45,651 bases of DNA from Methanobrevibacter sp. GTDB taxonomy: Archaea > Methanobacteriota > Methanobacteria > Methanobacteriales > Methanobacteriaceae. The translations under genes and the position numbers were made by a program. The DNA lies in contig NZ_JAGAXX010000078.1 of assembly GCF_017940815.1 (NCBI RefSeq), positions 1 through 45,651 of the forward strand. The letters are read 5' to 3'. Under the pieces are notes generated by a model. That model was given only the letters and a program-made list of their open reading frames with translations. It searched no databases and was not told the origin of the DNA. Positions 13,443 to 34,694 of this stretch are shown here, one piece after another (positions within the stretch are counted from its first letter, which is position 1; each line of letters begins with the position of its first letter).

Positions 13443-14981
13443 TTTCTTAAAGTTTAGTAAAGCGGACAACCCGAATCTGAATAAAACAACTCCGGTAGCT
13501 CCTCCTTTCTTAGCATTTTTAGCATCCTTTAAAAGAGAATTGTAAGAGAGCTTGCTGATATCCCAGTCGGAATGGTAACTTTGAAGTCCAGACCATATTG
13601 CAGATCCCTTGGATTGCTTAACAAATTTCTTTGTAGTTTTCTTGATCCATTTGGAACTGGCCTTGTAATTGCCTTTATAAATCATTGGGATAACAACGTC
13701 CAAATACTTTGAGATTGTAGGAACGTCCTGCCCATAGTAGTATTTCATGGAAGTTGGTTCAGGCATTACCGCAGCGGAAATTATGCAATTCGGATTCACG
13801 CCTCTGATTTTGATGCATGCTTCCTTGACAAAATAGTTGACTGCACTAACCGCATTCTTATATTTATATGCATTGCCTCCAAATCTCAAATAGTCAAAAT
13901 GGATTCCATCCACTTCCTTAAAGGAAGCGTAGTATTTAGCCAAGTTGATTTTTTCATTCATAAAAGCGTAATTGTAAACTCCTTTCTTGTTAGAAGCATG
14001 GACAAATTTTCCATCCTTATAAAATACAGCCATCCAAATGTGAACCTTGATGCCATACTTGTGAGCTTTTTTAATCCATTTTATTACTTTTGTGGAACCG
14101 TACTTTGAGAAAACAGTATGCTGAAGGAATATCTGTTTAGTTCCTTTTTTTGAAAGCTTCTTGAGGCTGACTTTCATCATGCCCCATTTATCAACCCAGT
14201 ATCCGTTACCCTTGGCCAATTTGGATTTAACGGTAATCTTAAATGTTCCTGAAGAATGCAAATACAATCCAGAACCTTCAAATGAGTATGCAACAGTATA
14301 AGTTCCTTTTTTAAGGTTTAAATAACATGATGCAATACCATAATCGTTGGTCTTGACTGTATAAGTCACTCCATTAACTTTAATTTTTACATTCTTGCCT
14401 TTGACTGGATTATTATTTATGTCAACTAATTTCAGTTGGAATATTGTTTTTGAACCTTGACGATAATTAATATTCTTATCCGCAACCGTGAGATAGGTCA
14501 CCAGGTCAGGATTGACCTTAATTATTGCAGTCCCATTGGATTCTGCATAATCGTCATCACCTTCAAAGAAATATTGAACATTATATGTTCCGGTTTTGAG
14601 TTTAAAGTTTATACTATATTTACCATTATCATTAGTGATTCCATTATACTTCACACCATTTAGAATGACTTTAACTGACTTATTTGCCAATGGAGTTCCA
14701 TTGGATTTTAATTTGACAGTGAATGTATCCTGCAAATTAGTGTATGTTTCCACATCCGATGCGGTGAATTTCACAGCAGACTTATTTTTCTCAATTTCAC
14801 CATCATCAGAGGAGTCGTTTTTAAGTATTTGTGAATCAGAATTCAAATCGATGCCCATATCCTGTGATGAGACATCATCCAAACAGACAGCGTCAGTAAC
14901 ATTTTCATTCGCTGAGACATAAGAAATAGTTAAAAATAATGATAAAAATATTATAAAACCAAATATGATTTTCTTATTCAT
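13437..14981 (-). CDS. Secreted Ig-like protein with glycoside-hydrolase-like (GHL10/DUF4015-type) domain
   Basis: A protein of 514 residues. Residues 1-~25 are a signal peptide (MNKK then a long hydrophobic stretch ending YVSA). Two Ig-like repeats of ~85-90 residues follow (each with 'VKV.LNGV.Y...TND.G' and 'L..GTY.V.Y.FEG'), as found in Methanobrevibacter adhesin-like proteins. From about residue 255 there is a TIM-barrel-like region with 'GIKVHIWMAVFY', 'EVDGIHFDYLRFGG' and 'YLDVVIPMIYKGNY', the pattern of putative glycosidases of the GHL10/DUF4015 group. It probably acts on or in the cell wall. No C-terminal anchor is visible. It starts 38 bases after the ADP-ribosylglycohydrolase gene and may share its transcript. 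Confidence 0.88.
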   Translation of the reverse strand: MNKKIIFGFIIFLSLFLTISYVSANENVTDAVCLDDVSSQDMGIDLNSDSQILKNDSSDDGEIEKNKSAVKFTASDVETYTNLQDTFTVKLKSNGTPLANKSVKVILNGVKYNGITNDNGKYSINFKLKTGTYNVQYFFEGDDDYAESNGTAIIKVNPDLVTYLTVADKNINYRQGSKTIFQLKLVDINNNPVKGKNVKIKVNGVTYTVKTNDYGIASCYLNLKKGTYTVAYSFEGSGLYLHSSGTFKITVKSKLAKGNGYWVDKWGMMKVSLKKLSKKGTKQIFLQHTVFSKYGSTKVIKWIKKAHKYGIKVHIWMAVFYKDGKFVHASNKKGVYNYAFMNEKINLAKYYASFKEVDGIHFDYLRFGGNAYKYKNAVSAVNYFVKEACIKIRGVNPNCIISAAVMPEPTSMKYYYGQDVPTISKYLDVVIPMIYKGNYKASSKWIKKTTKKFVKQSKGSAIWSGLQSYHSDWDISKLSYNSLLKDAKNAKKGGATGVVLFRFGLSALLNFKKL

Positions 14982-15019
14982 TAATTCACAACCAATTACT
15001 ATTTAATGCATTAAAATAC

Positions 15020-31298: not shown

Positions 31299-33644
31299 TC
31301 AGAACGGCAAACTAGCATATTTAGCATTGATTTTATAGGATTTAGTATTCCAGTTTGCTATTTTTCCTAAAGAATTCTTATAGCTAGTTGCATCAGCACA
31401 AACCCAATTTTTACCTATTAAAACCTGAGTCCAAACGTGACCTACAACATCCCCGTCACTGAACTTGCATACTCCGTGAACGTATCTTGCCTTAAATCCT
31501 GCAGTCCTAAACATGGAAACCAGCAAGTGAGAATGGTCGACACAGTTTCCCTTTTTAACCTTTAATGTGGTGACTGCACCATATTTGGTATCATAATAAT
31601 AGCTATATGCTAAGGTATCCCTTACATAGTTGTAGATTACCCTGGCCTTATCCTCATTTGTTGTCAAACCTTTGGTTAGGGACTTTACCAATTTCTTAAT
31701 CTTTTTAGTTCCAACCTTACAATGGCTGGATGACTTGATATATGCCTTGAGATAAGAAATGGAATTCTTCTGGTTAATTCCATTTTTAAATAATGAAAGT
31801 GTCACCTTCACGGATTGAGAGGACAAGCTGGAAAGGTAATTATTGTTTCCATCAAATTTAAACGAAACCTTATAGGTTCCCAATGCGACACTTGTCTTGA
31901 ATGTTGCATAACCCTCAGAGGAAGTTTTTGCACTGTAAGTTGCACCGTCTATTGTCAGCTTTACAGTTTGGCCAGAAATTGGCTTTCCATTAGAATCTGT
32001 CAATAGAATCTTGAAAGTTTGCAGATTATCCTTGAATGAAGTTCCGCTTTTCCAGCTCAATTTGGAAGCGCTTCTTTTAAATACATCTATATCAAAGGAC
32101 CCGGATGTTCCATAAACATAAGAGTCATTGCCTGTTTGATAATCAACAGAATAATTTCCGACATTCATATTAATTGGCAGATATGCAAAACCGTTATAAT
32201 CTGTAGTTTTAGTATAAGTCTTGCCGTTGACATTCAAGGAGACTGCCTTTTTCACCAGAGGAACACCTCCCGCTGTGTACTTGACTTTTAGAGAAGTTCC
32301 TGCACCATAACCAAAACTGGTGATTCCATTAGGAGCCAGTTTAGTATTTTTCTTGCTCAATATGGTTACATAATTTGTTGAAGTTGCCTTTTTAAAGAAT
32401 TTATTTCCCCCATAGACATATTGAACTTTATAAAGTCCTTTATCCAATGAAGGCAATTGAAGGTAAACCATTCCATTAGAGTCAGTTGTCCTTGAGTAGG
32501 TAACTCCATTAATATTAATTTTAATTGTCTTTCCTGACTTTGAGTAATCCCCTAATGCTGTGGATAATTTCACTTTTATTTGCTTGGACTGATTTGTATA
32601 GAATGTATACATATTGGTTGTTAGTCCAGTGGAAGCTTTTCTTTTGAAAACCTTGATAGTGTAAGTCTTAGAAAGCCCATCCTTATTATAGCAAATTACT
32701 TTATATGTGCCCTTTTTAAGATCTTTAACATTAAGGTTCACTATTCCCCAGGAATTTGTCTTATACTTCTTGGTTTTTCCCTTGAACTTAATCTTGACAT
32801 ACTTTTTGGATAACGGATTGCCGTTACTTTTGAAAAATTTTACTGTGAACTTCCTGCTGTCTCCCTTAACCTTATTAAGATTACTGGAGCTGACTGTTGA
32901 GAGAATCTTGAATGAGGTAGTTAGCTTGTATCCAGTGATTGGATCTTTGGAAACAATCTTATAGGTGCCTGGTTTTAAATTGACATCTAAACTTAAAACA
33001 CCCTTACCATTGGTTTTTTTAGTGTAAGATTTTCCATTAACACTCACAACAACATTACGATTAGCTAATGGGTTTCCATGGCTGTCATAAAATGTGGCCG
33101 TGTATTTTGTAGCTCCTTTATAATATTTTGTAATGTCACTTGCCTTAATTGTTGGCAAAATGGAAAATGAGGAAGTGAAATTACTTGACCCATAATCACA
33201 ATCCCCTTCAAAATAAGCGGCAATATCATATTTGCCTGGATCTAATTTTAAGTTGACAATAGCAACTCCGTCGTTGTCAGTTGTGGCCGTATAATTAACA
33301 TTATTTATTGTAAAAATGATTGTCTTATTAAACAAGGCGGTATTTGAATTTGAATCCTTTAAAACTACTTTGTAATCACCATGGTAGTAAACTTTTGATG
33401 ATTGTGAAGACAGTTCCGTAGCGTTAGTTTCCCCATCTTGAGGCAAATCGTCTGAATCATCTGATAACACATCTTTATTATCCAATCCGACTTCATCAAA
33501 ACCGGATGCATCACCTAAAGAAATATTATTATCACAAACAGTTACCACAGCAGTTGAATTAATATCCTGCGCTTGAATTGCACTAATTGAAAAAATAAGA
33601 ATTAATCCTAAAAATATAGTGAAAACAAAATTTCTGTTTAAAAT
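31299..33644 (-). CDS. Secreted Ig-repeat protein with transglutaminase-like cysteine peptidase domain
   Basis: A protein of 781 residues if translation starts at the ATT at 33644. From there the reading frame gives a clear signal peptide (LNRN, then VFTIFLGLILIFSISA). The frame has no ATG, GTG or TTG between an upstream stop (TGA) and a GTG at 33548, which lies beyond the signal peptide. AGGAGG ends 8 bases before the ATT. The mature part has six Ig-like repeats of ~85-95 residues ('G..L.G..V.....G..Y...T...G'), then a transglutaminase-like domain whose predicted triad is Cys701 (GNCVDHSH), His736 (GHVW) and Asp751 (ADAT). This resembles pseudomurein endoisopeptidases and other wall-acting enzymes. 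No C-terminal anchor is visible. Confidence 0.88.
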   Translation of the reverse strand: MLNRNFVFTIFLGLILIFSISAIQAQDINSTAVVTVCDNNISLGDASGFDEVGLDNKDVLSDDSDDLPQDGETNATELSSQSSKVYYHGDYKVVLKDSNSNTALFNKTIIFTINNVNYTATTDNDGVAIVNLKLDPGKYDIAAYFEGDCDYGSSNFTSSFSILPTIKASDITKYYKGATKYTATFYDSHGNPLANRNVVVSVNGKSYTKKTNGKGVLSLDVNLKPGTYKIVSKDPITGYKLTTSFKILSTVSSSNLNKVKGDSRKFTVKFFKSNGNPLSKKYVKIKFKGKTKKYKTNSWGIVNLNVKDLKKGTYKVICYNKDGLSKTYTIKVFKRKASTGLTTNMYTFYTNQSKQIKVKLSTALGDYSKSGKTIKININGVTYSRTTDSNGMVYLQLPSLDKGLYKVQYVYGGNKFFKKATSTNYVTILSKKNTKLAPNGITSFGYGAGTSLKVKYTAGGVPLVKKAVSLNVNGKTYTKTTDYNGFAYLPINMNVGNYSVDYQTGNDSYVYGTSGSFDIDVFKRSASKLSWKSGTSFKDNLQTFKILLTDSNGKPISGQTVKLTIDGATYSAKTSSEGYATFKTSVALGTYKVSFKFDGNNNYLSSLSSQSVKVTLSLFKNGINQKNSISYLKAYIKSSSHCKVGTKKIKKLVKSLTKGLTTNEDKARVIYNYVRDTLAYSYYYDTKYGAVTTLKVKKGNCVDHSHLLVSMFRTAGFKARYVHGVCKFSDGDVVGHVWTQVLIGKNWVCADATSYKNSLGKIANWNTKSYKINAKYASLPF

Positions 33645-33728
33645 AAATTTTTCCTCCTTGCCTAATGTTCATTTAATATTTAAATAAAATTATAAATATA
33701 AACCTTTAGGTAATGGAAATCAAAAACA

Positions 33729-34694
33729 TTACTTCCAGAATCTTGGATAGGTGTCCGGTTTCATGAATACCTTAGAGACATTAACTGCAAAACCTGAATC
33801 AGCTTCAAGAATCTCATTAGAAGTCAATAAAGAATTTCCAGCTGCAACCAATTCACCTTTCATGGTTTCAATTGCCACTATGTCATTCTTTTGGATGCTG
33901 TCAGCCAACTCGACAATTCCACCGTTAGCAAGGTCTGCACCGTGACATACCGCATCTACAGCGGAGTCTTTAATAATTATTTTTGGCAAGTAATCTGCAG
34001 CCCTTTCCATAGGCATTATTGCATCGCGTAAAAATGATTCGTCACCATCCTCTTTCCAGAAATGATATGCATCAGTCACATCCTGCAAGGTTACCAGTTT
34101 ATTCTTTTCATTGAAAGAACCAACCTGTGTTCTTCTAAGTTCCGCCATATGAGCCCCTACGCCCAACGCTTCACCTATATTGTGACAATAGGTTCTAACA
34201 TAAGTTCCAGCTTCACAACCTATTCTGAAAAGCACATCCCTACCTTCAATTTCATAAATTGTGGAATAATAAATGTTACGAGTTCTAAGCTCACGTTTTA
34301 CTGCGGACTTGACCGGAGGCAATTGAAAAATTTTACCGGTAAATTCAGCGAACACTTCACGAATTTTGTCCTCTTCCACATCCTGATGGAATGTTAAAAG
34401 ACAAACATACTCCTTAGGAGCAGTTAACAATAATTGAATAGCACGAGTAGCATCATTAAGCCCAACCGGCAGGATACCTGTTACCTTAGGGTCCAATGTT
34501 CCACCGTGACCGGATTTTTCTAAGTTTAAAATACGTTTAACCCAAGAGTCTATTTCATGTGATGTTGGTCCGGAAGGCTTATCCAAATTGATAACACCTT
34601 TTGAGATATAATCATTAATTTCACGATCTTCTGGCTTGCAACCAAATTCAGAACTAGTAAAACTTTGAGATTTTTTAACCATATTGAATTTCAT
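33729..34694 (-). CDS. cbf5: tRNA/rRNA pseudouridine synthase (Cbf5/TruB archaeal)
   Basis: A protein of 321 residues. The catalytic motif is GGTLDPKVTG with Asp68; later come 'GTYVRTYCHNIGEALGVGAHM' (short segments) and a C-terminal PUA domain ('ADLANGGIVELADSIQKNDIVAI'). Archaeal Cbf5 is the catalytic part of the H/ACA guide-RNA particle and also makes pseudouridine 55 in tRNA. It follows L14e by 71 bases containing a terminator-like hairpin, so it may be transcribed partly on its own. In related archaea the next gene is S13; here an accessory block intervenes. Confidence 0.95.
   Translation of the reverse strand: MKFNMVKKSQSFTSSEFGCKPEDREINDYISKGVINLDKPSGPTSHEIDSWVKRILNLEKSGHGGTLDPKVTGILPVGLNDATRAIQLLLTAPKEYVCLLTFHQDVEEDKIREVFAEFTGKIFQLPPVKSAVKRELRTRNIYYSTIYEIEGRDVLFRIGCEAGTYVRTYCHNIGEALGVGAHMAELRRTQVGSFNEKNKLVTLQDVTDAYHFWKEDGDESFLRDAIMPMERAADYLPKIIIKDSAVDAVCHGADLANGGIVELADSIQKNDIVAIETMKGELVAAGNSLLTSNEILEADSGFAVNVSKVFMKPDTYPRFWK

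Follow-up and report, generated by a model that had tools for sequence, protein, structure and literature searches.

The closest described counterpart of the start site considered here is the bacterial gene infC, encoding IF3, which has an AUU start in Escherichia coli and ATC in Streptomyces (PMC5472188). Besides, sigR of Streptomyces starts at GTC and is repressed by IF3, a start which keeps the amount of protein low (PMC5472188). For archaea, discrimination of aIF1 against non-canonical starts has been described in Sulfolobus (work cited in PMC6237735), and an ATT start was inferred for the tubulin AtubA of a Kariarchaeaceae (Asgard) MAG (PMC13394414). A study covering 36 groups of prokaryotic genomes for start-codon switches recorded AUU as a possible start, with only single switches to AUU among approximately 61,000 AUG and 5,000 GUG ancestral starts (PMC5622118). 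Reports on AUU starts in methanogens were not found in the literature searched, and one elsewhere is possible.

The genes described below share with infC an AUU/AUC initiator which has been kept through evolution. While infC is bacterial and its autoregulation by IF3 has been demonstrated, the present examples are genes of secreted proteins as well as nadE, and they are known from sequence. As in sigR, a non-canonical start is found in a working gene, but the codon and the domain of life are different, and the case of sigR was tested experimentally. The AtubA start resembles ours in being an archaeal ATT start inferred by homology and RBS distance; as described there, however, it concerns a single gene with no ortholog series reported, whereas a series of orthologs was compared here. 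Unlike in the survey of start-codon switches, AUU is conserved across whole families. Our best reading is that AUU represents a rare but regular start in Methanobrevibacter, with the genome under study and about 30 related species apparently using it for other genes as well. It is very likely that AUU truly serves as a start codon in Methanobrevibacter.

The window, i.e., the whole stretch of 45,651 nucleotides that was analyzed, belongs to a draft genome of 2.03 Mb in 88 contigs, of which it is number 41, and 67 searchable Methanobrevibacter genomes were available for comparison. In a first-pass annotation, an AUU start behind a perfect Shine-Dalgarno (SD) sequence had been proposed for a secreted protein encoded in this window. 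Its coordinates, the SD sequence, the ATT, the signal peptide and the lack of any ATG, GTG or TTG ahead of the GTG at 33548 were all confirmed to the base. The features concerned are as follows.

31299..33644, minus strand: open reading frame from ATT, 781-aa secreted protein with signal peptide, Ig-like repeats and transglutaminase-like domain (translation and Pfam)
33653..33658, minus strand: Shine-Dalgarno sequence AGGAGG (sequence)
33642..33644, minus strand: ATT, the putative start, 8 nt behind GGAGG, the mode of ATG genes being 7 (sequence and spacing)
33639..33641, minus strand: TTA where most orthologs have their TTG start, at GGAGG+11 (ortholog alignment)
33570..33644, minus strand: signal peptide ILNRNFVFTIFLGLILIFSISAIQA with a cleavage site placed by eye, homologous to the signal peptides of TTG-started relatives
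31389..31694, minus strand: transglutaminase-like core, PF01841, E 3e-22 (Pfam)
33546..33548, minus strand: GTG, first in-frame canonical start, behind the signal peptide and with no SD seen; rejected (sequence)
33669..33671, minus strand: in-frame TGA stop closing the upstream end (sequence)
33670..33672, minus strand: ATG, out of frame and upstream of the SD; rejected (sequence)
33729..34694, minus strand: cbf5, the neighboring gene upstream, for a TruB-type pseudouridine synthase; marks synteny in several orthologs (Pfam, synteny)

Beyond the in-frame TGA (33671-33669), the frame is open all the way to its stop at 31299. Read on the minus strand, AGGAGG (33658-33653) is followed by 8 nt and then by ATT (33644-33642), behind which TTA AAC AGA and the signal peptide are encoded. 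Translation from this ATT gives ILNRNFVFTIFLGLILIFSISAIQA followed by QDINST..., which is a normal signal peptide, and a product of 781 aa with Ig-like repeats and a transglutaminase-like core. All Pfam scores of the protein exceed the curated cutoffs (Big_3_5 86 bits, Big_1 78 bits, Transglut_core 79 bits), and three residues of the core were spotted by eye, namely Cys (GNCVDHS), His (GHVWTQ) and Asp (CADATS). With signal peptide, Big-type repeats and Transglut_core all present, the gene fits a secreted Ig/transglutaminase-like surface protein. An mRNA hairpin was not detected at the start of the gene (z = +1.15). The same window also encodes a paralog (13443-14984, minus strand), a secreted Ig-type protein that starts at an ordinary ATG.

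From the ATT up to the GTG at 33548, which lies 32 codons downstream and behind the signal peptide, the frame contains no ATG, GTG or TTG, and no in-frame AUG, GUG or UUG of the gene is able to give the full conserved protein. As the first canonical codon in frame, this GTG could in principle start a protein devoid of signal peptide. Such a start is very improbable, however, since no SD precedes it and since it would remove from an Ig/transglutaminase surface protein a signal peptide that is conserved with the TTG-started relatives; moreover, one ortholog (L016 in genome G040) runs for 54 codons without any canonical start. Alternatively, a one-base indel might conceal an ATG start, a situation with a precedent in the same genome, where an A7 run separates ATG and signal peptide of gene L198. 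For the window gene, this frameshift can be practically dismissed, as no out-of-frame start is located within 14 nt of its SD. The upstream ATG at 33672, the only ATG in the vicinity, which according to the first-pass annotation an indel might join to the frame, precedes the SD, and its frame is without signal peptide and has no similar protein in the relatives.

Spacing supports the ATT as well. In genes with ATG as first start, the distance from GGAGG to ATG has a mode of 7, a distance of 8 is among the common ones (8/66), and distances of at least 11 occur in 3% of ATG genes; for GGTGA, the mode is 4 (97/167). The ATT of the window is located at GGAGG+8 and the subsequent TTA at +11, while in the family ATT is mostly found at 6 and TTG at 9.

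Alignment of the 5' regions revealed that the usual start of the orthologs is a TTG one codon after the ATT (GGAGG-TAAATT-ATT-TTG-AAC-AAA), whereas the window reads ATT-TTA-AAC-AGA. The leader of the ortholog in genome G055 (L030; GGAGGAAAAATTTATTTTGAAC), which has ATT TTG, differs from that of the window (GGAGGAAAAATTTATTTTAAAC) by a single base between GGAGG and the third codon. The proposed ATT start is supported for the window gene, while most relatives start one codon further downstream, and in most of them TTG alone explains translation. The TTG is missing in 8 of 31 scored orthologs, being replaced by TTA in the window, TTT in L016, L017, L018 and L026, TTC in L152, CTT in L021 and TCA in L014. 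In 8/8 of these, ATT directly precedes the replaced codon at 6-8 nt from the SD. Overall, 22/31 orthologs carry ATT at this codon (8/8 without TTG vs 14/23 with TTG; Fisher P=0.04), and an ATG in its place, a state considered in the first-pass annotation, was not seen in the orthologs compared. Initiation at the former TTG codon, now TTA (33641-33639), by mispairing is unlikely. While TTA corresponds in position to the TTG start of the homologs and is only one base away from TTG, the eight TTG-less orthologs display five codons there (TTT, TTC, TTA, CTT, TCA) with no common initiator pairing, only the preceding ATT being common to them, and at 11 nt from GGAGG the TTA lies beyond nearly all ATG genes.

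About 13 family members possess TTG without ATT (GTT, GAT, TAT, AAT, ACT, TTT or TTA before TTG). Members lacking both codons were not found except for L154, where in-frame ATGs occur further upstream, and L015, L025 and L038 with an ATG start at a shifted place. TTG and ATT may thus both serve as starts in this family. The notion of ATT instead of TTG being the true start in all members is favored by spacing (ATT 6, TTG 9), but these approximately 13 genes speak against it. The family would rather carry a tandem of potential starts, ATT-TTG, of which the change from TTG to TTA in the window leaves the ATT alone. As a separate observation, the leaders of paralogs L005, L150-L176 and L249-L348 are nearly identical (TTGTTATGGAGGTAAAWTATTTTGAACAAA) and more alike than the coding parts, for which recent copying, gene conversion or a common control element can be offered as explanations.

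Concerning INDEPENDENCE and selection, the TTG state needs at least seven independent changes among the 31 scored rows when mapped on a maximum-likelihood tree built from 35 full-length orthologs. In six phylogenetically independent pairs, a number too small for significance, ATT agrees in 1-3, is opposite in none and is uninformative in 3-5. The 8/8 finding is therefore weakly informative once kinship is counted, ATT being already common before TTG in the family. A silenced gene or a sequencing error had been named as the alternative to an AUU start, and in favor of an assembly or sequencing error reading TTG as TTA, it may be noted that the genome is an 88-contig draft and that the near-identical leader of L030 has TTG. 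Still, silencing or such an error is improbable given that the TTG is missing in eight orthologs from separate assemblies with at least seven changes on the tree and that all eight genes have open frames of about 780 codons. Besides, dN/dS amounts to 0.21 (L023-L026), 0.13 (L014-L020) and 0.11 (L014-L149) in the closest pairs including a TTG-less gene, compared to 0.11-0.26 in other pairs. The TTG-less genes hence look like working genes under purifying selection, and base-call errors would be untenable as a general cause of TTG absence. Furthermore, the evidence for AUU from other families holds even if the base in the window is wrong.

This evidence was obtained by scanning 1.40 of the 2.03 Mb of the genome (a 69% sample with 1212 ORFs) for slots, defined as in-frame codons that follow a strong SD at suitable spacing and have no canonical start nearby; scans limited to GGAGG or to hydrophobic N-termini were both too narrow. 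Among 36 SD-optimal slots without canonical start, ATT was found eight times (expected 1.5, P=1.2e-4), ATC once and ATA never, while control motifs gave ATT in 3/52 cases in the same genome and in 7/53 at the loci of relatives. Signal-peptide proteins account for 7/8 of the ATT slots, and with a slightly wider search range, 8/10 ATT genes vs 35/256 canonical genes encode a signal peptide (P=9e-6). Out-of-frame starts near the SD which an indel could recruit were absent from the eight ATT slots, except for a GTG inside nadE. Weaker cases are L202 and L226, where an ATG in the same frame lies no more than 5 codons behind the ATT. Hence, of the statement that such a start would be a rare case in an archaeon, the rarity of the codon stands, but it is not an isolated one, as AUU starts recur in the genus, nadE included. 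A dedicated AUU initiator tRNA was not apparent in a non-exhaustive scan of the genomic DNA, which yielded one tRNA-Met(CAT) and nothing odd.

Secreted proteins of this genome with ATT at an SD-optimal slot further include L374:4500(-), L376:10068, L202:12854, L226:6458 and L362:13056. A possible AUC start is seen in L247:1573 on contig C74, a TMEM175-like channel gene in which ATC occupies GGTGA+4 and 11 codons pass without a canonical start. The very large repeat protein L198 (1598-7219, contig C22) was considered as a further AUU case and rejected, its ATG and signal peptide being one base out of frame near the A7 run, either by homopolymer error or as a phase-variable switch. In the same 1.40 Mb, TTG starts are enriched in signal-peptide genes (11/36 vs 23/204 for ATG; P=0.005), and weak starts might be a common trait of secreted proteins.

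A second secreted family is represented in the genome by a gene on the minus strand of contig C8 (C8:10656-12488; L183:10656-12473), which encodes Ig repeats and DUF4015 without usable canonical start. Its orthologs share AGGTGA-AAAA-ATT-TCG-ATA-AAA-AAT, and in 27/27 orthologs with recognizable SD, the codon 4-5 nt after the SD is ATT (24) or ATC (3), which corresponds to the modal GGTGA-to-ATG distance. The absence of ATA, as well as of ATG, is notable in view of the isoleucine codon usage of the genome (ATT 13312, ATC 7433, ATA 7198). Three orthologs (L384, L387, L388) have an ATG two codons downstream at GGTGA+10, a distance used by 2/167 ATG genes. Together with L359:3136(-) on contig C5, L183 belongs to the secreted Ig-type proteins of this genome with an ATT-TCG start behind GGTGG.

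The third example, the gene nadE of the core enzyme NAD synthetase (L229:13936 on contig C55; Pfam NAD_synthase 293 bits), likewise occupies an ATT slot. Across 32 species, the codon 4 nt after GGTGA is ATT in 28, ATC in 2 and ATG in 2 (G047, G048), counted as pattern matches located on nadE coordinates with two mismatches allowed, which favors ATT over GTG and TTG but admits ATG, ATC and ATA equally. The ATG in G047 and G048 marks the slot codon as the nadE start, and 10 different codons precede it across the 32 loci. Draft quality is not the cause of the ATT, as the one-contig genome G008 is among the matches. In many species, the open frame starts only about 4 codons before the ATT (open frame of 266 aa, match from residue 2). 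Pooling nadE with the Ig/DUF4015 family gives ATT 52, ATC 5 and ATG 2 in 59 sequences, and this preference for ATT/ATC over ATG, only one base change away, suggests selection for a weak start.

Directly seen for the AUU starts are their sequence anatomy, recurrence, codon conservation, spacing and purifying selection. In the window, AUU 33644 is probably the start of the gene; SD spacing, ortholog conservation and recurrence in the same genome support the AUU start as the best explanation. Mechanistically, the strong AGGAGG 8 nt upstream would set this codon as start, the initiator tRNA-Met presumably pairing with AUU at two positions with the help of the strong SD. We infer that ribosomes start at AUU with Met, inserted by the ordinary initiator tRNA, and less efficiently than at AUG, so that output from AUU would be lower. 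To our knowledge, archaea are without IF3 and use aIF1, to which AUU genes could be sensitive. Tuning of expression in the manner of infC appears plausible, as ATT/ATC rather than ATG persists in two other families. More tentatively, and rather doubtful at present, AUU (rarely AUC) might be a selected weak start of secreted Ig/adhesin-type and NAD synthetase genes, kept against the one-step change to AUG, with synthesis being tuned by start-codon discrimination, presumably through aIF1. This would constitute an archaeal counterpart of infC acting on many genes.

Gene finders usually accept only ATG, GTG and TTG. Consequently, proteins with AUU start are probably annotated without signal peptides or with wrong N-termini, and dozens of gut methanogens probably contain mis-annotated starts. 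Should selection indeed maintain AUU starts, the setting of protein levels by start-codon discrimination in archaea becomes testable, for which NAD synthetase, with 28 AUU vs 2 AUG species compared at a single codon, would offer a clean natural comparison.
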